This document shows, piece after piece, positions 168-23,413 of a stretch of DNA of 23,413 nt. Made by a program: the position numbers and the translations under genes. Numbering within the stretch: the first letter of the stretch is position 1; each line of letters begins with the position of its first letter. Source of the DNA: a virus. Location: positions 1-23,413 of the IMG/VR virus record IMGVR_UViG_3300006921_000165; one strand, written 5' to 3'. A model generated the notes under the pieces. The model saw only the letters and a list, made by a program, of their open reading frames with translations, was not told the origin of the DNA and ran no database searches.

Positions 168-189
168 AAAAATACTCAAACGTATTTTT
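168..189 (+). promoter_or_regulatory. Hairpin element, copy 1 of 4
   Basis: The stem is AAAAATAC (168-175) paired with GTATTTTT (182-189), around the six-base loop TCAAAC. Three related hairpins lie at 1093, 3462 and 5280. The three stem pairs next to the loop differ between copies but always stay complementary. This copy stands about 40 bases before the first gene of the early block. TATAAC follows at 197-202. With a single G-C pair this would be a very weak terminator, so a promoter or RNA-processing role is at least as likely. A small additional inverted repeat, GTGGT/ACCAC (143-147/154-158), lies just upstream. Confidence 0.55.
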
Positions 190-1092: not shown

Positions 1093-1114
1093 AAAAATGC
1101 CCGAAAGCATTTTT
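1093..1114 (+). promoter_or_regulatory. Hairpin element, copy 2 of 4
   Basis: The stem is AAAAATGC (1093-1100) paired with GCATTTTT (1107-1114), around the loop CCGAAA. Relative to copy 1 the stem changes TAC/GTA to TGC/GCA, a compensated change. It lies in the 164-base gap between 985 and 1150, 35 bases before the next start codon. A T-run follows (1110-1115), so this copy could also act as a weak terminator. The rest of the gap (986-1092) is AT-rich with no ORF of note. Confidence 0.55.
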
Positions 1115-3190: not shown

Positions 3191-3463
3191 ATGAAACAAC
3201 CAACAACTCGTAAAAAACGTCTAAGTTTACTAGATAAACTATACTTTATACAAGAACTGATACGTGATCTTGAAGATCAAATAGAAGATCATGACACAGG
3301 TCACATACATACTGCAATAAACGTATTACATACAGAAGAATATAAAATCGCAGATAGCATATCATTCGCATTAAAAAATCAAAAAACTATAAATGACGAT
3401 GATTATGTCGACGACTTAAAAGATATCTTAGGTGATAATCTTTCATACGGAGGCACTGCGTAA
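3191..3463 (+). CDS. Small helical early protein, unknown function
   Basis: This is a 90-aa protein. I choose the ATG at 3191, since GAGGTG lies five bases ahead; an upstream in-frame start at 3173 has no ribosome site. The N-terminus is basic (MKQPTTRKKR), followed by a helical acidic segment (LSLLDKLYFIQELIRDLEDQ). The first codons contain an 18-bp sequence that recurs in non-coding DNA at 5157-5174. The stop codon overlaps the first bases of hairpin copy 3. The function is unknown. Confidence 0.65.
   Translation: MKQPTTRKKRLSLLDKLYFIQELIRDLEDQIEDHDTGHIHTAINVLHTEEYKIADSISFALKNQKTINDDDYVDDLKDILGDNLSYGGTA
3195..3212 (+). repeat. 18-bp direct repeat, first copy
   Basis: AACAACCAACAACTCGTA occurs here inside the start of a gene (codons for QPTTR) and again, exactly, at 5157-5174 in the gap before the + gene at 5187. 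The two copies bracket roughly 2 kb that includes the minus-strand island. Confidence 0.7.
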
Positions 3464-3481
3464 AACGCCCAAAAGCGTTTT
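3462..3481 (+). promoter_or_regulatory. Hairpin element, copy 3 of 4
   Basis: The stem is AAAACGC (3462-3468) paired with GCGTTTT (3475-3481), around the loop CCAAAA. The first two stem bases are part of the TAA stop of the upstream gene. After the stem comes CACAATAG, not a T-run, so it is a poor terminator. TATAAC follows at 3491-3496, a similar distance from the stem as in copy 1. It precedes the 27-aa membrane protein gene. Confidence 0.55.
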
Positions 3482-4709: not shown

Positions 4710-5111
4710 CTAACCCCCATCCGTTAATTCGCGTATTTTGCGGTCAAGTTCGTCTTCAGATAACTCAGAAGTATCTAAGTTCTTTGTTGTCTGATCTATT
4801 CTTTGCAGCTTTGGCTGCTCATATTCTGCTAAGGCTATAGCTAAACGCTCAATAGTATCTTGATCTTCAAGCTGCATAGCTTTAACTAGCTGCACCTTCA
4901 GTATCTCTACAGCTGTGGGCATCTCTGTAATTATCTCATCTCTGATTTTTCTAAATTCAGACGCAGATAATTTCATAGACTCCCTAAGTTGCCTGTTCTG
5001 TCTTCGTGCTTCTGCACCTTTCGCCTGCATCTCACGAGCTTTCTCAGAGTCCATATAGGGCTTGAGCTGCTTGAGAGAATTAGGGTGCTTGCCACAGTTC
5101 TCGTAACCCAT
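4710..5111 (-). CDS. Possible small terminase subunit
   Basis: This is a 133-aa protein. I take the ATG at 5111, because GGAGG lies six bases ahead on the minus strand; a TTG at 5123 is upstream but overlaps that site. The N-terminal SLKQLKPYMDSEKAREMQAK and the basic helical stretch after it recall the DNA-binding head of small terminase subunits. The acidic C-terminus (SELSEDELDRKIRELTDGG) also resembles such proteins. If correct, it recognises viral DNA for packaging. It is alone on the minus strand within a + strand region, the strand used by the late genes. An alternative is a small transcription regulator. The family call is tentative. Confidence 0.4.
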   Translation of the reverse strand: MGYENCGKHPNSLKQLKPYMDSEKAREMQAKGAEARRQNRQLRESMKLSASEFRKIRDEIITEMPTAVEILKVQLVKAMQLEDQDTIERLAIALAEYEQPKLQRIDQTTKNLDTSELSEDELDRKIRELTDGG

Positions 5112-5156
5112 GTAAACCTCCAAGTTAATTGTCTTTTAGGAGACATTTAAAATTTT

Positions 5157-5186: not shown

Positions 5187-5615
5187 ATGACTGACTACTT
5201 AAAGATTATAAAAGAATGTCAAGAAAGATTAGGTATTAAAGACGACTCAGTTCCTAATTACTTATCAGGTACTAAGTCAAAAACGCCCGAGAGCGTTTTC
5301 TATAACAATAAAAGAAAGGATAAACCAATGGCTAAAGTAACTGCCGTGCAGATTCTCAAAGAAGCTGCTGAACTTAAAGAAAGAAAGAGTAAAGATTATC
5401 AAGGTGGCATGTGGTCAGAAGAAGATTACTTTCCGTTCGGAGATAAATCTTATGTTCATATGATACATACAAAGTATTTACGTATGAGAAATATAGTTGA
5501 AGGCGATCAAGAAACAAACTTCGAAGCCTTAGAAGATACACTTGTAGACATGGCAGTATACTGTGCAATGTTTGCAGCACATATAGAAAACGTTAAAATG
5601 GAAAAGGATAACTAA
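5187..5615 (+). CDS. DUF1599-like (nucleotide modification associated) protein
   Basis: This ORF encodes 142 aa. Residues 48-138 contain the pattern KSKDY, then HTKYLRMRNIV, then EALEDTLVDMAVYC, which matches my memory of the DUF1599 / nucleotide-modification-associated domain 1 family found in phage nucleotide operons. Its biochemical role is not established. Two starts are possible. The ATG at 5187 has GAAGGGA ahead. The ATG at 5328 has AAAGGA seven bases ahead and gives a 95-aa protein made only of the domain. Hairpin copy 4 lies in frame between them, so both forms could be made. The next gene starts on the last base of the stop (TAATG). The operon continues with a TS-fold enzyme and a pyrophosphohydrolase. 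Confidence 0.65.
   Translation: MTDYLKIIKECQERLGIKDDSVPNYLSGTKSKTPESVFYNNKRKDKPMAKVTAVQILKEAAELKERKSKDYQGGMWSEEDYFPFGDKSYVHMIHTKYLRMRNIVEGDQETNFEALEDTLVDMAVYCAMFAAHIENVKMEKDN
5280..5299 (+). promoter_or_regulatory. Hairpin element, copy 4 of 4 (inside a reading frame)
   Basis: The stem is AAAACGC (5280-5286) paired with GCGTTTT (5293-5299), around the loop CCGAGA. The stem is the same as in copy 3, with a different loop. It is followed at once by CTATAAC and, 29 bases after the stem, by an ATG (5328) with a good ribosome site. Read as protein it encodes KTPESVF in the long form of the DUF1599-like gene. Confidence 0.5.
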
Positions 5616-14902: not shown

Positions 14903-14945
14903 CCCCTAAGATTACCATACGGTATTCTTAGGGGTATTTTTTTTT
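14903..14945. terminator. Bidirectional terminator between + and late minus genes
   Basis: The stem is CCCCTAAGATTACC (14903-14916) with GGTATTCTTAGGGG (14921-14934) and loop ATAC, with one T-T mismatch. It is followed on the + strand by TATTTTTTTTT and on the minus strand by TTTTTTATTAG. It separates the + replication block from the converging late operon. Core bases CTAAGA/TCTTAG are shared with the terminator at 4641. Confidence 0.88.
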
Positions 14946-17900
14946 ACAAGTCTATATTTAAAACAGTCGACGTATCTTTAGCAAATTCTTTTCCAAAGGC
15001 TTCAGCTTTTCTTGCAACATCCAAACTTCTTTTGGTAAGATCAATTTCTTGTGTTATAATTTTTACTATTCTTATCCATTGTTTACCTGTTATTGTATTA
15101 GCTGTTCTTAAATTTAAACCTAAATCAGCTTTAATACGTTTTTCAATTTTAGTAGCTGCAGTTTGAGCTGCTGTATCTATACGTTCTTTAAATTCATTAG
15201 ATGTTTCAGCAGTATCTGAACGAGATACCTTAAAAACATGAGACAATTCATTAACAAGATTTATCTGCTCACCCGGTCTACCCGATCTTTTAACAGCAGA
15301 TCTAAACAAATATCCAAGACCTTTTAACTCACCGACACCAGACTCTCCTTCATCTCTAGCTTCTTTAAAGTTTAAAATGCGATCATTATTATGCAGCTTA
15401 ACAAATTCTGCAGTAGTATCAGGATACCAGTTACGCATAACATCAACAAGAGCATTATGATTTATAATGCCGTCTTTTAAATTCTTATTAGTTTCTGGTC
15501 TAAGTTGACCTAATGTACCTAAATCTGTTAGATAAGCATCAAATATTGGTTTAACCCATGCACCTTGAGTGGATCCGTTTAACTTAGCTTTTTCATTTAA
15601 ACGTTTTAAAGAAGCACCACTTAATGTAGAAGCAACCATGTTACCATCATAGCTTTGTACAAGTGTAGCAATGATTCTAGGGTTAAAACCTCCTGGGCCA
15701 AGGCCCTGTCTAACAGCAGATCCTTGTACATTAGCGCCATAGTATTGAGTTGTAATTTGTTTTAAACCAGCGAAATCAACACCAGTTTGAGTTTGCATTT
15801 GACGACCTTCTTTATCAACCATAATAGTTTCTTTACCAGATGCAACTGATTCAAAACCTAATGCGTTTGTAAAAGTTAAAGGCATGTTAGTTATTTGTGA
15901 TACTAAACCCATACCCTTAAGAACTTTACTAGTTTCAATTGTTGCTTCATCAAGTAAATTAAATATAGAATTAACAAGCATCGTATGTAAAAAGTTTATA
16001 GTCTCTTGTTCTTTTTGCTGATACATTAAAGGGTTACCAGCATCATTATTACTCGGAGGTAACTGGTCTTTAATAAGCCTTTGTATCTTATCCGATTGTG
16101 GACCTACTTGTACTACGCTTTCAACATGTTGTTTAAGTGATTCAATGTTCTGCCCATATCCCATAGTCATAGGAGATTTTTTAAGATACATATCTCTATC
16201 TGCGATAGCAAATTCTAAAATAGATGCCATCAAAGGTAGCTCACCATCTTTAACTAACGACGCACCAACAGAACTATTAATAGTAGTTCTCATATCTTCT
16301 GCCATTGCATCGCGTAAATCTATTTCATCACGAGCGTAATAGTTCTGAGTTCTTATTAATCCACCACGCTTAGCCATTTCAGGAACACCGATAAGAGCTG
16401 CGTTAGTAGTATTACCATGAGTCACACCATCAATTTCAACAGTGATAGATGTTGTAAATGGTTTACTAGTTTTGTCGTTTAAAGCTTTATCATATCGATA
16501 TAAATCCATGTAATATTGTATAAACATTGGAAATTCTTTACCGTGTTTAGCAAGAATTTCTTTTATATTACTGTTAGTTCCTAAAGGATCTGCGTTAAAC
16601 TCTGGCATTTGCCGTAGTTGTTCTCTTAATTGTCTTACTTCTTGCTCACTTGTGGCATTAGCTAATTTACTTATCGCATCTTTTGAAAAACTGACAGGTA
16701 AATCTTTTTCTATTTCAGATAATGTTTTACCTATTTCAACAGCTGTATAATAAGACGAATCTCTCTGGTTTTTTAATCTATTAAAAGCGTCTACTCTATA
16801 CTCAGGTGAAAGTGTTTCAATACCTTTCTTAGTTCTTATATCATTATCAAGTACAGGATCATTTAATATTTTAGTAGCTATGATTTCTTTCCAAAGCTTT
16901 TCTAAACGAGTATCTTTTCCTGCTGGAAATCTATAAGGAACTCCACTACTTAGAACTGCTCTTACACTTTTATGAGCTTGATAATCCCATATGTCTTCAT
17001 CAATATGCAATCTACCTGTCAACGCTTGTACTACATATCTATTGTATGTTGCGGCATCTCCATATCTAATAATAGCATCTATTTGATTAATAGTTTTTTG
17101 AGCTTCTAATGTCTGAAGTTTTTGAGGATTATACATTCTTATAGTAAGCTCTAACATTTGTACTATACGAGGGTTAGGAGAATCTTTAGCTAACTCTACA
17201 GCTAAATCAGCTTTATAAACTTCTTTACCTTTTATAAATTCTCTAAGTCTTGCTTGACCTATTTCAAACATATCAGAGTATAGATCACTAGTACCATCTG
17301 TATTACGATCTGCTTTTAATAAAGCATGTAAACCAAAGACAATAGAAAAATCACCTTTAGTTTTATCAACAACATTAGGTATGTTAGATAAGTTTCTTGC
17401 TGCTTCACTTACTCTATTAGACATAATTTCTTTGACAACACTAGGCTTCATAACTGAAGTTATTGGTCTAAAAGTATTTGCTCGTTCACCGAGAGCTTTA
17501 TTATTAGGCGGTGCTAACGCAGGTCTTTTTTCTTGTGATTTAAAAAGTCCTTTAGTAGCTTTAGCTTGGTTCTGTAAAACTTGTCTGCCCACAGGAGTTA
17601 GTACAAAATCTATTGCACCTATATCAGAGTCTTTATTTGTTCTAAATAATATTTCTGGGTTAGCTTCAGCATAAGCTTCTTTTAAAATATCTCCTAATAA
17701 AGTAAAAGACTGTGGGGTTATTTTATTCTGATCTTCTAAATATGAATCAGTAGGTTCTCCTATTGCTTCTGATTGTATTCTTCTCCACTCTCTAAATACT
17801 TCTTGACCTAACTTTAAATTATCTTTAGATTTTTTTATAGCTAAAGGTTTTGCTAAAGATTCTGCAACAATTCCTTTAAATTGTTCAGGATTAAAAGTAG

Positions 17901-18720
17901 GCATACTTTCTATAGTATCGTATACATCATTTTCAATTATAGCATCTGGTGAAGAAGCCACCATATCTGAATGTAAAAAGTTTTCTACTATCATAGATGC
18001 AACGACACCAAAACCAGGATCAATTCGTGTAAAACCTGTATCAGGATCTTGTTTACCTGCGTTTAAAATATTAGGATTAAAGAAAATATTTTTAGCATTA
18101 ACAGCCGTGTTATCAACTGTTGTAGCTTTCTGCCAAGATTCTAAAGGCTTAACGCCTGTTTTTCTTTCTCGCTCTTCTACCAACGCATCGGCAAAACCTT
18201 TTGTCTCTGCTTCTGCTTGAAAGAAATTTGATAAAGAAGTTTTTACTTTAGTATTTAATATTTTTGCAAAGACATCAGCTCTAAGTAAACTACCTGATAC
18301 TACTTTATCGTCAGTAGCTGATAGCTTTAACTCTTCAAGTCGAGTAGTAATAGGTTTTACTCGTGACTCTTCAATTTCTCTCATAGCTGCATCTGAAGTT
18401 GCGTCAACAGATATGTCTTCTCCTTCTACAGCTTCTTGAAATATATCACCTGGTACACTAAGATCTCCTCCAAGATTTTCAGCTGCAAACTTATTTGTTT
18501 CAGAATCTATTTCTCTAGTAACTTCTGCAACTTCTGCATCTGGATCTATTGTAAATTTAGGATCTGCAACTGTTTTATCTTCTACTGTTTTATCTTCTAT
18601 AGCAGCAGTATCTCGTACAGTAGGCATAACGTTACCTAATCTATTATGTAGTTGTTCTACAGCTGTTTGACCTAGTGTAGATATTGCTTTACCTGGCTTT
18701 ATGTTTACATTAATAGCCAT
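14944..18720 (-). CDS. N4-type virion RNA polymerase-like protein
   Basis: This 1258-aa protein is the last gene of the late operon. It appears to be a single-subunit RNA polymerase. In order it shows TGR (Arg570, T7 Arg425), motif A EIDGVTHGNTT (Asp764, T7 Asp537), motif B KKSPMTMGYG (Lys847, Tyr855; T7 Lys631, Tyr639, same spacing) and motif C IFDAY (Asp1061, T7 Asp812). The TGR form and the EIDG motif recall the phage N4 virion RNA polymerase, which is packaged and injected to transcribe early genes. About 560 residues precede the core, the first 120 of them acidic. About 190 residues follow motif C. The ribosome site is GGGAG, and the start overlaps the upstream stop by one base. An internal virion protein without polymerase activity remains possible. 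Confidence 0.72.
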   Translation of the reverse strand: MAINVNIKPGKAISTLGQTAVEQLHNRLGNVMPTVRDTAAIEDKTVEDKTVADPKFTIDPDAEVAEVTREIDSETNKFAAENLGGDLSVPGDIFQEAVEGEDISVDATSDAAMREIEESRVKPITTRLEELKLSATDDKVVSGSLLRADVFAKILNTKVKTSLSNFFQAEAETKGFADALVEERERKTGVKPLESWQKATTVDNTAVNAKNIFFNPNILNAGKQDPDTGFTRIDPGFGVVASMIVENFLHSDMVASSPDAIIENDVYDTIESMPTFNPEQFKGIVAESLAKPLAIKKSKDNLKLGQEVFREWRRIQSEAIGEPTDSYLEDQNKITPQSFTLLGDILKEAYAEANPEILFRTNKDSDIGAIDFVLTPVGRQVLQNQAKATKGLFKSQEKRPALAPPNNKALGERANTFRPITSVMKPSVVKEIMSNRVSEAARNLSNIPNVVDKTKGDFSIVFGLHALLKADRNTDGTSDLYSDMFEIGQARLREFIKGKEVYKADLAVELAKDSPNPRIVQMLELTIRMYNPQKLQTLEAQKTINQIDAIIRYGDAATYNRYVVQALTGRLHIDEDIWDYQAHKSVRAVLSSGVPYRFPAGKDTRLEKLWKEIIATKILNDPVLDNDIRTKKGIETLSPEYRVDAFNRLKNQRDSSYYTAVEIGKTLSEIEKDLPVSFSKDAISKLANATSEQEVRQLREQLRQMPEFNADPLGTNSNIKEILAKHGKEFPMFIQYYMDLYRYDKALNDKTSKPFTTSITVEIDGVTHGNTTNAALIGVPEMAKRGGLIRTQNYYARDEIDLRDAMAEDMRTTINSSVGASLVKDGELPLMASILEFAIADRDMYLKKSPMTMGYGQNIESLKQHVESVVQVGPQSDKIQRLIKDQLPPSNNDAGNPLMYQQKEQETINFLHTMLVNSIFNLLDEATIETSKVLKGMGLVSQITNMPLTFTNALGFESVASGKETIMVDKEGRQMQTQTGVDFAGLKQITTQYYGANVQGSAVRQGLGPGGFNPRIIATLVQSYDGNMVASTLSGASLKRLNEKAKLNGSTQGAWVKPIFDAYLTDLGTLGQLRPETNKNLKDGIINHNALVDVMRNWYPDTTAEFVKLHNNDRILNFKEARDEGESGVGELKGLGYLFRSAVKRSGRPGEQINLVNELSHVFKVSRSDTAETSNEFKERIDTAAQTAATKIEKRIKADLGLNLRTANTITGKQWIRIVKIITQEIDLTKRSLDVARKAEAFGKEFAKDTSTVLNIDL

Positions 18721-21700
18721 TATCGATTCTCCCGTGCTTGTTGAATATCATATATACGTTGATTTTCTTTAGACATTTTGGAATAAGGTGTTTCGTACTT
18801 TTTAGGAGGAGACTTTCCAAATAATCCTTCAGCTATTGTTCTATTAAGTCTATTAAAAGGTCCTATAAATGGAGCTGTTTTCATTATATCATAAGCTCCT
18901 TTATCAGGTTGACCTTGTATTATTTTTCCTGCTCCACCGTATACACGAGTAACATTAGATAATGCTGCAGCTTCACCAGAGATAGTATTAAATAACCATT
19001 CAGCTGGACTATCAGAAGACTGTTCATATATAGGATACATAAAGTTCATAACTCTTTCACCAGTACCTAATAATCCTGATGCACCTATACCTCTTTGTAT
19101 TTTCTCTACAGGATCTAAGTAAGGAGTTGGTTCTCCATATTTTAATAGATCTTTTAAATACTGAGATAAGAATCCTAAGAATATCATAGTCATCATAACA
19201 GCAAATGCATTATACTTAAGCGAAGGGTTACCACGTTTAATGTATTCACCCCACATTTTAGGTATTTGATTAGCTGTAAATGTAGATATAAAACCTTGGA
19301 ACTGTGTGAACAAAGCAAGATGCTGGTTCTGATAATACAATGGTCTGTTAGCTGTGTTAGGTAAAGCAATAGCTATATTAACAAAGTTAAACTCTGCATC
19401 AAGCATCATAGCATCAAAATCTTTTAGCTGCTTGGGATTCCAAGGACCTTGCTGAGTTTGCATTCTAATAAGTAATTCAACATCTATACCTAAGTTTCTT
19501 AACAATTCTTCAGATTCTTGCATATCATTTGTTTTAGCATCACCACTTTTTCTACCATTTATAATAGTTTCTAAGTGACTCATAATATAATCATCTGCAA
19601 TAGAAGCACGTATGTTACGTGTATAATCAGTCCACTGTTGTAACCCAATTACTCTAAAATATTTATCTAACAAACGCCTTGATGCATGTGTAGTTTCTGT
19701 AGCACCAGTTGTCTGAGCTGCACCAACATCCCAATCAAAGAATCCTAATTGTTTTATACGTTCTTGTCTTTGCTCTTTCTTTAATTGACGATTAGTAGAG
19801 TTCCATCTAGGATCTGTCATAGTCGCCCACATAGCTTGTGCTGCTTCTTTAGATGCGTTACCTATTTCTTTAAATATTATATTTGGAGGAACGCTTACTG
19901 CAGTAACTGCTAGCTCTACAAATGAAGATATAGTAGCTAAAGGTAAACCTGCTATTGTAGTCCATACACCTAAATTCTTTTGTATCTTAGATATGTTAGC
20001 ATTTTTAATACGCTTGTAGTTACCTGATTCTGCATTTAAATAGTCTTGCATTTGCTTAGCAATACGATTTACGTTTTGCTCAGATACTCCTTCCTTCTCA
20101 GCTTCATTTAAAAGATAAGCAACTTTTTCATTGTTATCTCCTAAAAATTCTTGATATGTTATAACTCTTGAAGCTGACTTAGCTGCGTTAGATATATTTA
20201 CAAACGCATCTCTTTCCATAAACTCATTAAACTCAGGTCGTTGTGATAACCCTAACGTACGTTTCTTATGTGCAGCTGGAATAAATTTACTACCACCTAC
20301 TTGGAAATCTTGATCTGCTACTAATGTATCTTGATTAATAATATTATCTGTTAGTGTTGTTGCATCAGCTTTATTAAACTTAAATGTAGTCATAAGTGTT
20401 TGTATAAACTTTGCTCTATTCTTTTCAATAGCGCCTTTATTAAAAGATTTATACTTCATTAAATAATTATTAAGTCTTTTAACATCAAACTTTTTATTGT
20501 TTTCTTTATAAGATTTCTCTTGATCTGCTAATAGCTTATCTGATAGCATAGCTTGTTGGTTGTAATATTGTTTTAAGAAAGTTTCATAAGGTTTTAAATT
20601 AGCTGGAAGTGAATTCCAATTTACATTACTACCTTCCTTATCGTTATTACCTTTAGGATCTACAAGCCAGTATCCAAAATCATTTATTATTTCAGATAGC
20701 TTTGCTTGATCTACTGTTTTAATACCTGCTATACTAGCAAACTCTGCTGGAGTAGAAACTAAATTACGATATGTAGTTAATAAATGTTTCTTTCTATTCT
20801 CAAAGTTAACACCACTAAACGTACGTTGTAAGTTAGCACCAAACATATCAGCAAGTTTACGAAGAGATCTAGAACTATCTTGTAAAGCATCTGTGAATAT
20901 AAATCTAGTAGAACCTCTCCATAAACCTGGTATAGATTCCCATGTTCTTTTAACTCGATCCCATGTAGACATTTCTTTAGTATCAACTTTACTATCAGCT
21001 GCACGTTGATCTACAGTTTTAGTATTAACTTTAGTAGAAAATCTATCTTCAAGTTTTTTAGCTTGCTTAAGTCTTTTATTGTACGCGTTATCTGTTTCAT
21101 CAGCTTTAGCTATACTTCCATCTCTAAATTTATCACCTTTATTATATCTAGGTCTTATTAAATAATCATACGTATTTGATATATTAGGTGGCATAACTAC
21201 TTTATTTCTTTCGTTAGCTACTTTTTCACCAGCTTCTAGTGTTAATTCTTGTATAGATTCTACTCTTCCAAACTCTTCTAAGTCAGCTTCATATTGTGAA
21301 CCAGCTCTTGATAGTTTATTTGGATCAGCTTCAGCCTGTCTAACAGCTATATCAGTCCATGCACCTACATCAATCGCTGCTCCTGGTATAGAAAATCCTG
21401 CACCGAGAGTACCACCTGCTATAGTAGCATTTAATAATCTGTTTTGTAATTCATAAGCGTCGAATACTTTCTCACTACCTACTACAGCTGCCATGTAAGC
21501 AGTAGCTTCTTGCATTGCCTCAGTAGCACCCTCTGTTACTGCGCCTCTTGCACCTCTTTGAAATAAAGATCTTAAAACATTACGAGCTTTAAGCTGTTCT
21601 TTAGCTACAGTAGCTGCTGCTCCTGTAAGTAATGCAGCTTCTTTTCTAGTCATTTGTGCTAATATTTTTCTAGCATCACCAGGAGTTACACCATCTCTCT

Positions 21701-22934
21701 TAACAATAGCAGCAACCGCTTTATCAGCTACTGATTTATTCATTAGTGTTCCGCTAATACCTTTTAAACCAAGTCTATCTAATACTGCTTGAGTTATACC
21801 AGCACCTACAGCAAGTGTAGCACTTTTACTATCGCCTTCCATTTCATTCCAAGTTTGTCCTGTATACATAGCTACTATTGGTAACATAGATGTACCATAA
21901 GTAACAGGAGCTAACGCTGCTCCACCCATAGTAGCTGCCATATAAGGAAGAGAAACCATAGCATTGTTACCTAAGAATTCAAAGAACTCTCCAACATTAT
22001 CTATGTCCCATTCATTACCAATAGTGTTACCATCTTCATCTAGCTTAGGTATAAGAGCACTTAATTTTACTTTAGGCATATCAGCTAGCTTTGTATGAAG
22101 TCTATTTATATTAGTCTCACCATAATGTTCTAACCAATTAAAGCCTGTTTTTTCTCCAAGCATATCAGCAACGCCATACAATCCTTCCATAGCACCAGTA
22201 ACACCAACGTCCCATGATGTACTTAAAGGATTAAGAGCATTATTAAAAAGATCTCTATCATTACGACGTACCTGTACATTGCTATAATCATAAGTTTTAG
22301 CTAGAGCTTGTCGCCTTTTATACTGATCTATTGATTCTCCAGGCTGACGCTCTGCTGTTAAGTTAGCTATTTCTTTTTCATCAAACGCTATCTTTTTAGC
22401 AGTATCTATATAGTCCCCAGTTTCTGCATCTTTAGCTACACGCATTAACGTTTCTGCAACTTCCCATTCAGACATATCTTGTTCATAAGCTGAACCGGCT
22501 CTCATTGCTTTACCATATGCTGCAGCAGCTAATTGATTATCACTACTATATAAATTAGGTTGTGATATTCCTTCTGCTGCGAGCATAGATGTAAAGTCAT
22601 TACCGTATTTATCTACTAAATGAACTAGCTGACGAGTATTTGTAGTATCCATCATTGGACTACCGTCTTCATTAAAAAGATATTTTATTTTATTAAAGCC
22701 TTTTTTCTTAGCTAATCTTGGAATAACTTCATCGGCCATAGCTCCGCCAGCAGTACCAGTTGTTACTGTACCATCAGGTAATATACGCTGTATCTCAGGC
22801 GCTTCATATCCTTGAATACGAAGCAGGTTACCTGAAGAATCTATAAGTGTATCAGGATCAGAGAAAACAAAACCACTTTCTTTCATAAGTTCTTGACCGG
22901 GTATTATTGCATTTTGTAAACGATTACTACCCAT
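18720..22934 (-). CDS. gp16-like internal virion protein with nuclease-like N-terminus
   Basis: This 1404-aa protein is probably part of the ejected inner core, similar in size to T7 gp16 (1318 aa). Residues 20-130 resemble a staphylococcal nuclease fold. They have DPDT (Asp28), LRIQGYEAPE (Arg39, Glu44, Glu47) and TRQLVHL (Arg101), matching Asp21, Arg35, Asp40, Glu43 and Arg87 of the nuclease, with Asp40 replaced by Glu. Ala/Gly-rich hydrophobic stretches lie near 325-385, 465-525 and 985-1015, with a clear membrane-like segment at 1243-1260 (AVMMTMIFLGFLSQYL). T7 gp16 has a lytic transglycosylase at this end; none is seen here. GGAG lies before the ATG. It is co-transcribed with the polymerase-like gene. 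Confidence 0.72.
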   Translation of the reverse strand: MGSNRLQNAIIPGQELMKESGFVFSDPDTLIDSSGNLLRIQGYEAPEIQRILPDGTVTTGTAGGAMADEVIPRLAKKKGFNKIKYLFNEDGSPMMDTTNTRQLVHLVDKYGNDFTSMLAAEGISQPNLYSSDNQLAAAAYGKAMRAGSAYEQDMSEWEVAETLMRVAKDAETGDYIDTAKKIAFDEKEIANLTAERQPGESIDQYKRRQALAKTYDYSNVQVRRNDRDLFNNALNPLSTSWDVGVTGAMEGLYGVADMLGEKTGFNWLEHYGETNINRLHTKLADMPKVKLSALIPKLDEDGNTIGNEWDIDNVGEFFEFLGNNAMVSLPYMAATMGGAALAPVTYGTSMLPIVAMYTGQTWNEMEGDSKSATLAVGAGITQAVLDRLGLKGISGTLMNKSVADKAVAAIVKRDGVTPGDARKILAQMTRKEAALLTGAAATVAKEQLKARNVLRSLFQRGARGAVTEGATEAMQEATAYMAAVVGSEKVFDAYELQNRLLNATIAGGTLGAGFSIPGAAIDVGAWTDIAVRQAEADPNKLSRAGSQYEADLEEFGRVESIQELTLEAGEKVANERNKVVMPPNISNTYDYLIRPRYNKGDKFRDGSIAKADETDNAYNKRLKQAKKLEDRFSTKVNTKTVDQRAADSKVDTKEMSTWDRVKRTWESIPGLWRGSTRFIFTDALQDSSRSLRKLADMFGANLQRTFSGVNFENRKKHLLTTYRNLVSTPAEFASIAGIKTVDQAKLSEIINDFGYWLVDPKGNNDKEGSNVNWNSLPANLKPYETFLKQYYNQQAMLSDKLLADQEKSYKENNKKFDVKRLNNYLMKYKSFNKGAIEKNRAKFIQTLMTTFKFNKADATTLTDNIINQDTLVADQDFQVGGSKFIPAAHKKRTLGLSQRPEFNEFMERDAFVNISNAAKSASRVITYQEFLGDNNEKVAYLLNEAEKEGVSEQNVNRIAKQMQDYLNAESGNYKRIKNANISKIQKNLGVWTTIAGLPLATISSFVELAVTAVSVPPNIIFKEIGNASKEAAQAMWATMTDPRWNSTNRQLKKEQRQERIKQLGFFDWDVGAAQTTGATETTHASRRLLDKYFRVIGLQQWTDYTRNIRASIADDYIMSHLETIINGRKSGDAKTNDMQESEELLRNLGIDVELLIRMQTQQGPWNPKQLKDFDAMMLDAEFNFVNIAIALPNTANRPLYYQNQHLALFTQFQGFISTFTANQIPKMWGEYIKRGNPSLKYNAFAVMMTMIFLGFLSQYLKDLLKYGEPTPYLDPVEKIQRGIGASGLLGTGERVMNFMYPIYEQSSDSPAEWLFNTISGEAAALSNVTRVYGGAGKIIQGQPDKGAYDIMKTAPFIGPFNRLNRTIAEGLFGKSPPKKYETPYSKMSKENQRIYDIQQARENR

Positions 22935-22950
22935 TATATTACTCCTTTAA

Positions 22951-23403
22951 TTAGTTACTTCTAAGTTCTCTTCTTAACCATGACATGAATAATGTCTCAT
23001 CAGGTTGTGTATTTTTCTTAGCTATTTCTATAGCTTTACTTTCACCTTTTAATTTAGTTGCTTTACCGTTAATATCTGAAACACTTATTTCACTTGGATT
23101 ACCGTTAAAGGCTGACAGATCCGCTGTAAATAGTTGATGATACATTTTCCATTTATCGCTAAGTTCATTTCGACCTTCTGCAGAAGCCCAATCTAACGTT
23201 GGATAAGCAGTTGAACCTGCAACAGCTTCATTAAGTTTCTTTATAGCGTTAACATTCTTGGGAGTAACTGCGTCACCAAATAAGTTTGGATCAATAGTAG
23301 CTACCGCTGATCTAATAAATCCAGCTTCTATCCAAGGTGTAATTGACTGCGGTTTATAGGTTGGATCAGCACGCACAGCCGCTAACATATTCTCATGGGC
23401 CAT
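22951..23403 (-). CDS. Late virion-operon protein, unknown, start uncertain
   Basis: This 150-aa protein lies upstream of the gp16-like gene in the late operon, with a 16-base gap. The visible start is an ATG at 23403, only ten bases from the window edge. No ribosome site is seen in those ten bases, and the frame stays open to the edge, so the true start may lie outside. The protein has no membrane segment. In T7 the gene before the large core proteins is gp14, and a small internal virion or connector-linked role fits the place, but no similarity was recognised. Confidence 0.6.
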   Translation of the reverse strand: MAHENMLAAVRADPTYKPQSITPWIEAGFIRSAVATIDPNLFGDAVTPKNVNAIKKLNEAVAGSTAYPTLDWASAEGRNELSDKWKMYHQLFTADLSAFNGNPSEISVSDINGKATKLKGESKAIEIAKKNTQPDETLFMSWLRRELRSN

Positions 23404-23413
23404 TATAGCTATA

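Follow-up and report, generated by a model that had tools for sequence, protein, structure and literature searches.

The window analysed here is the whole 23.4-kb contig (23,413 nucleotides) of IMG/VR record IMGVR_UViG_3300006921_000165, which derives from an uncultivated marine phage. Next to the gene of a gp16-like ejection protein, its minus strand encodes a protein of 1258 amino acids (aa) that, judged by sequence comparison, belongs by homology to the family of the catalytic domains of N4-type virion RNA polymerases (vRNAPs). The polymerase homology, the fold, the invariance of the catalytic residues, the gene order, the absence of cysteine and the repeated hairpins described below were all established by computation. 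Rightward genes of the window run from small early genes through thymidylate synthase, family A DNA polymerase, exonuclease, primase-helicase and dCMP deaminase to a T7-like RNA polymerase (RNAP). The leftward late operon is convergent to the latter and comprises, within the window, a gene cut by the window end, the gp16-like gene and, as the last one, the vRNAP-like gene (Table 1). A sequence-only reading of the window had reported the 1258-aa open reading frame (ORF) together with the residues discussed here; all of them are in place, and the strand, which that reading left unstated, is minus.

Sequence and predicted fold of the 1258-aa protein

The protein contains the ordered motif set of single-subunit RNAPs: TGR followed by VEIDGVTHG (with D764), LKKSPMTMGYG (K847 and Y855) and PIFDA (D1061). 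Used alone as a query, it gave no match in Pfam, PHROGs, PDB sequences, 50,697 phages or viral contigs. Relatives were gathered by synteny: 80 loci were collected around the adjacent T7-like RNAP and the syntenic minus-strand ORF was taken from them, which resulted in 38 homologs with 21–38% identity (BLAST). A scan with the alignment yielded 67 loci in viral contigs, many of these contigs being among those already found, and one contig from a metagenome-assembled genome (MAG) assigned to Candidatus Pelagibacter. The same three-gene arrangement is present in L117 (NZIO01000029.1), whose place in a Candidatus Pelagibacter MAG hints weakly at the host.

In 39 aligned sequences no variation was seen at R570 (scored in 35 of them), D764 (scored in 37) or K847, Y855 and D1061 (scored in all 39). 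The residues noticed in the single sequence are invariant or nearly so in the homologs, and the motif set is far beyond chance, given this conservation, the profile match described below and the failure of the control profiles. Between the window and relative G004 (homolog L007), no long gene has diverged faster than the vRNAP-like one, with 36% identity. The T7-like RNAP is 94% identical between the two, the DNA polymerase 87.5% and the gp16-like protein 72%; a comparably low value (35%) is reached only by the cut gene at 22951. This low identity may reflect either rapid evolution or replacement of the gene.

The family profile was compared, profile to profile, with 12 diverse Schitoviridae vRNAPs. 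It matches their catalytic domains with an expectation value (E) of 2.2e-15 over 458 columns covering all four motifs, and a profile restricted to the core matches the vRNAP core with E of 1e-16, at about 13% identity to N4-type vRNAP in the aligned core. Against full-length vRNAPs the alignment falls on N4 residues 1370–1929 only; the N-terminal (E 0.59) and C-terminal (E 0.35) parts of the vRNAPs are not matched. Five column-shuffled profiles and a reversed one gave no significant match (E 0.16–0.92), and neither did a comparison with the phages' own T7-like RNAPs (E 0.05–0.09; 0.085 for the family profile). The motif forms agree with this result. The form ExDGxxHG occurs in 36 of 39 compact proteins, 12 of 12 Schitoviridae vRNAPs and none of 35 T7-like RNAPs, while the HDS form of motif C is present in all 35 T7-like RNAPs and in neither of the other groups; by sequence, the compact proteins side with vRNAP and are set apart from the T7-like enzymes. 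The pattern ExDGxxxG is the signature used to define N4 vRNAPs (PMC10654107). In a tblastn search of the 50,697 phage records with one homolog, only Schitoviridae vRNAPs were matched, though weakly (E 0.03–0.5). Nine of 23 members match phrog_414 RNA polymerase (best 7e-8), and one matches phrog_2206 virion RNA polymerase (6e-5). The family profile found no match among PDB sequences by hmmsearch, so the case for homology rests on the profile-profile and fold comparisons. The giant Schitoviridae vRNAP class, whose members exceed 2500 aa and bear N- and C-terminal domains, was considered and rejected for this protein, which has 1258 aa and no match to the terminal parts.

The AlphaFold model of residues 130–1258 (predicted local distance difference test score 78.5, predicted template modelling score 0.75) has the predicted fold of a single-subunit RNAP, with the right-hand arrangement of palm, fingers and thumb. 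Foldseek against PDB places T7, mitochondrial and N4 RNAPs on top (T7 with E 3e-14, N4 2po4 with E 2.5e-13), and the top fold matches from Foldseek and VIA are single-subunit RNAPs only. VIA-align gives Z 25.7 over 542 residues for T7 RNAP and Z 21.8 over 745 residues for N4 mini-vRNAP. The fold alone does not separate the T7 type from the N4 type; the sequence does. Both comparisons that the sequence-only reading had proposed for its resemblance to the N4 virion polymerase, by profile and by structure, speak for it: the family profile matches N4 vRNAP specifically (E 2e-15 to 1e-16 to the vRNAP core), and the predicted fold is that of an RNAP.

Late operon and possible signs of packaging

Table 1. 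Positions of the vRNAP-like gene, its motifs, neighbouring genes and stem-loops in the window.
Feature	Position	Strand	Remarks
Compact vRNAP-like gene	14944..18720	-	1258 aa, open throughout, zero cysteine
TGR motif (T/DxxGR), residues 568-570	17011..17019	-	R570 35/35 in alignment
Motif A EIDGVTHG, residues 762-769, catalytic D764	16414..16437	-	D764 37/37; fits ExDGxxxG vRNAP signature (PMC10654107)
Motif B KKSPMTMGY, residues 847-855	16156..16182	-	K847 and Y855 39/39
Motif C IFDA, residues 1059-1062, catalytic D1061	15535..15546	-	D1061 39/39
gp16-like ejection protein, 1404 aa, no cysteine	18720..22934	-	phrog_6958 virion structural protein, 2.8e-31
Next late (virion) gene, C-terminal part, cut by window end	22951..23412	-	Frame open at window edge
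Canonical T7-like RNAP, separate gene, 730 aa	12462..14654	+	PF00940 2e-54; phrog_414 5e-94
Candidate early hairpin promoter AAAAATAC-TCAAAC-GTATTTTT	168..189	+	39 nt before ATG at 228
Candidate early hairpin promoter AAAAATGC-CCGAAA-GCATTTTT	1093..1114	+	36 nt before ATG at 1150
Candidate early hairpin promoter AAAACGC-CCAAAA-GCGTTTT	3462..3481	+	End of one early gene, upstream of next
Candidate early hairpin promoter AAAACGC-CCGAGA-GCGTTTT	5280..5299	+	28 nt before ATG at 5328, between divergent genes
Long GC-rich terminator-like stem-loop	4633..4679	.	Convergent junction; unlike early hairpins

Wherever a locus has enough flanking sequence, the vRNAP-like gene ends the late operon, with the T7-like RNAP convergent to it and the gp16-like gene upstream. 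The placing of the gene in a late virion operon beside an ejection protein, made in the sequence-only reading, is borne out by this order and by the phrog_6958 match of the neighbour. In the window, the ATG of the vRNAP-like gene and the TAA stop of the gp16-like gene have one base in common (TAATG). Where the window has the cut gene, the relatives have an ORF of at least 460 aa. A split T7-like RNAP was considered for locus L159 and rejected, the enzyme there being one chain of 787 aa.

The protein lacks cysteine in the window, in 23 of 23 aligned family members, in 9 CRP-7-type relatives and in 12 of 12 Schitoviridae vRNAPs; two further homologs have one cysteine each. In the same phages the content per 1000 aa is 0.13 for the gp16-like family, about 15 for the T7-like RNAPs and 10 for the DNA polymerases. 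For LUZ7 and LIT1, a connection has been drawn between ejection and a lack of cysteine (PMC3715699). The N4 gene for gp50 is likewise the last of its late operon and stands beside gp51 and gp52, which is the place of the compact gene. From the operon position, the TAATG overlap and the lack of cysteine we infer that the compact protein would be packaged and ejected.

The gp16-like family matches the N-terminal domain of N4 vRNAP over ~60 columns (E 1e-5), an ejection-protein segment shared by the two; against the C-terminal part of vRNAP the 1404-aa family gave no match. The short N-terminal match is no more than a hint that the N4 giant could be a fusion of a gp16-like protein with the polymerase core. 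In the cysteine-free late block of relative G003 the third gene (L103:1553-4792) encodes a protein of 1079 aa that carries a phage tail lysozyme domain (PF18013) and is likely an ejection protein that opens the cell wall.

The major capsid protein of G003 is of the SU10_MCP/phrog_1328 type, versus phrog_1357 in N4 (the window itself contains no capsid gene), and its portal is SU10_portal/phrog_1216, a PHROG that the N4 portal matches too and that may extend beyond Schitoviridae. An SU10-type capsid combined with an N4-PHROG portal in this relative does not show the phages to be Schitoviridae. The name of a T7-type phage given earlier suits only the replication and RNAP module; for the virion it was rejected, as the G003 capsid and portal are SU10/N4-like.

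Two observations concern other parts of the window. A minus-strand gene (4710–5123) inside the rightward early region is conserved in nearly all relatives checked and has no family match; in the oriented G006 record it lies on the plus strand. As a guess, it may encode a small terminase subunit. A direct repeat of CCTGCAGCTGAAT occupies positions 1–32 at the extreme left contig end, and is possibly close to the genome end or an assembly artefact.

Hairpins of the early region

The hairpins at 1093, 3462 and 5280 share one pattern that did not occur in 100 shuffles, and the hairpins are confined to the early region and the plus strand. Relative G004 has three of the window type. Those of G003, G001, G002, L023 and L025 are related to it, have 4-nucleotide (nt) loops and other stems, and all lie in the early region. 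The site before the 5328 gene is kept in most relatives which bear that gene, with differing stems and retained pairing; just upstream of the corresponding gene in L037, L038 and L051 no hairpin was found.

N4 vRNAP touches its promoters at positions -8 and -11, with four A's serving as the ruler (PMC4496689). The N4 promoters P1 and P2, and a third site taken as P3, have the form arm-GC-loop-GC-N3-TTTT. A scan for the stem-to-start ruler returns plus-strand sites of N4 at 90 (P1), 557 (P2) and 4546 (presumably P3), together with one minus-strand site. In eight relatives it returns five sites, all plus-strand and early, versus 1.0 expected. No sigma-70-like site scoring at least 10/12 was found on the plus strand of the first 6 kb, and intergenic stretches searched for recurring linear promoter words of the T7 type gave none that was convincing. 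The likeness of the hairpins to N4 vRNAP promoters is suggestive, and it is somewhat more likely than not, judging from sequence, that they serve as promoters of the vRNAP; our confidence is held at this level because the 6-nt loop class of the window is not an exact fit to the ruler.

Interpretation and comparison with known systems

Taken together, the gene most probably encodes a single-subunit RNAP of the N4 vRNAP lineage reduced to about the catalytic domain. After late synthesis the enzyme would be packaged together with the gp16-like protein and be ejected along with the DNA. Inside the cell it would initiate transcription of the rightward early region, probably from short DNA hairpins that resemble the N4 vRNAP promoters. 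Early and middle expression would then yield the separate T7-like RNAP, which would take over as RNAPII does in N4. Packaging, ejection, catalytic activity and the use of hairpins as promoters are what we infer here, and we regard the central part of this scheme, a compact packaged vRNAP which is ejected and initiates early transcription, as quite likely. Several points weigh against it. The N-terminal (~1000 aa) and C-terminal (~1400 aa) domains of the N4 protein are absent from the compact one; R842, the arginine upstream of the motif B lysine, is present in the window and not strictly conserved among homologs; relatives G005, G006 and G007 (the last a 30-kb fragment) show no such hairpin element; the window hairpins have 6-nt loops versus 3-nt loops in N4 and do not fit the ruler exactly; and the excess of ruler-type hairpins, five versus 1.0, is modest.

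The protein might instead be a catalytically dead ejection or structural protein of vRNAP descent that enters the virion with the gp16-like protein and makes no RNA. Gene position and lack of cysteine suit any ejected protein, and the divergent CRP-7 protein has arginine in place of the motif B lysine. A dead enzyme should, however, lose some of its catalytic residues, and R570, D764, K847, Y855 and D1061 are invariant even in homologs of about 21% identity, encoded by the long gene that diverges fastest, which makes this explanation unlikely. Slightly less likely still is a second, active RNAP synthesised late that remains in the cell, for instance for late transcription. The gene does lie in the late operon, but the absence of cysteine from the 23 aligned members is a property of vRNAPs and not of the intracellular RNAPs of the same phages, the gene overlaps translationally with that of an ejection protein, and the known members of the parent lineage are packaged. 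Motif B of family A DNA polymerases also has the K-x7-YG form, and a relative of these enzymes, or a chance set of motifs, could be imagined behind the protein; with E of 0.19 for the family profile against family A polymerases of the same phages, and with RNAPs as the fold matches, this is hardly credible.

A far stronger competitor, with a probability somewhat short of even, concerns the hairpins only and leaves the preferred reading of the polymerase as it is: they could be weak terminators or RNA-processing signals. The order A-rich arm, loop and T-rich arm resembles weak intrinsic terminators, the 6-nt loops are unlike those of N4, and the copy at 3462 overlaps a gene end. On the other hand, in several lineages one site is flanked by divergent genes and precedes a start codon by 28–50 nt; stems change between lineages while pairing is kept; the terminator found at the convergent junction is unlike the hairpins; and the ruler scan recovers three plus-strand sites in N4 and five in relatives, all on the plus strand and early.

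The compact form is smaller than any vRNAP type that we found described, stands outside the giant Schitoviridae form and is widespread in ocean viromes (dozens of related viruses). No vRNAP near 1200 aa is described in the open-licence literature searched, the shortest one named having 2083 aa (PMC11705849). A survey of vRNAPs in IMG/VR dropped all candidates below 2500 aa in order to remove T7-like enzymes (PMC10654107), and the compact type was probably passed over because searches discarded short versions. Our inclination, only a little beyond even, is towards a wider picture: a widespread marine podovirus lineage outside Schitoviridae, with a natural mini-vRNAP ejected with the genome, hairpin promoters with different loops and a handover to a one-chain T7-like RNAP, where ejection and polymerase functions fused in the 3500-aa N4 chain would be distributed over two overlapping genes. 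What is known of single-subunit virion RNAPs comes essentially from the giant protein of Schitoviridae; a natural short form makes it testable why that protein is so large and whether its terminal parts are needed for packaging, ejection and regulation. The findings also suggest that host-independent early transcription is commoner in ocean phages than thought, and a compact hairpin-reading RNAP acting on single-stranded templates could serve as a laboratory enzyme.

Phages such as phiKZ and the crAss-like ones also carry RNAP in the virion (PMC4666361), but those enzymes are of the multi-subunit type with an unrelated fold. T7 RNAP and the phage's own 730-aa RNAP share the single-subunit fold and catalytic residues with the compact protein and differ from it in the DxxGR, FDG and HDS motif forms, in their many cysteines and in the lack of a significant profile match. 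The nearest cultured relative, Roseobacter phage CRP-7 (MK613349), was published with one RNAP only (PMC6918029). Its gp33 (L002:5860-9567), which is vRNAP-like and unannotated, equals the compact protein in genome place, length and lack of cysteine and matches the family profile with E of 2e-8 to 4e-9. It is very divergent: the aspartates of motifs A and C and the Tyr-Gly of motif B are kept, the motif B lysine being replaced by arginine. Early hairpins were not found in CRP-7.

The sequence-only reading had called the combination of polymerases unfamiliar. Two phage RNAPs are in fact known together, vRNAP and RNAPII in N4 (PMC4496689) and a 2083-aa vRNAP with a second RNAP in Alteromonas phage R22Y (PMC11705849), for which that paper gives close (>60%) matches to an Alteromonas schitovirus. 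The novelty lies in the compact form, which falls outside the giant Schitoviridae type and goes together with a T7-like RNAP of one chain. R22Y, likened here by description, resembles the present phage in having a shorter vRNAP and a second phage RNAP; its vRNAP is longer than the compact one. A close parallel is N4 gp50, the Schitoviridae vRNAP whose catalytic domain (998–2103) is the mini-vRNAP. The two have in common the TxxGR-type, ExDGxxxG, KxPxT..YG and [FH]D[AG] motifs, the fold, the lack of cysteine, the position at the end of the late operon beside ejection proteins and a phage with a second, T7-like RNAP. They differ in the hairpin loops, of 4 or 6 nt in the compact-vRNAP phages versus 3 nt in N4, and in length, 1258 aa versus 3000–3800 aa in N4-type vRNAPs. 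The compact protein exceeds the N4 catalytic domain, taken by itself, by about 150 aa and has about a third of the size of the N4 giant; it is aptly described as a minimal natural version, as had been supposed from its sequence.

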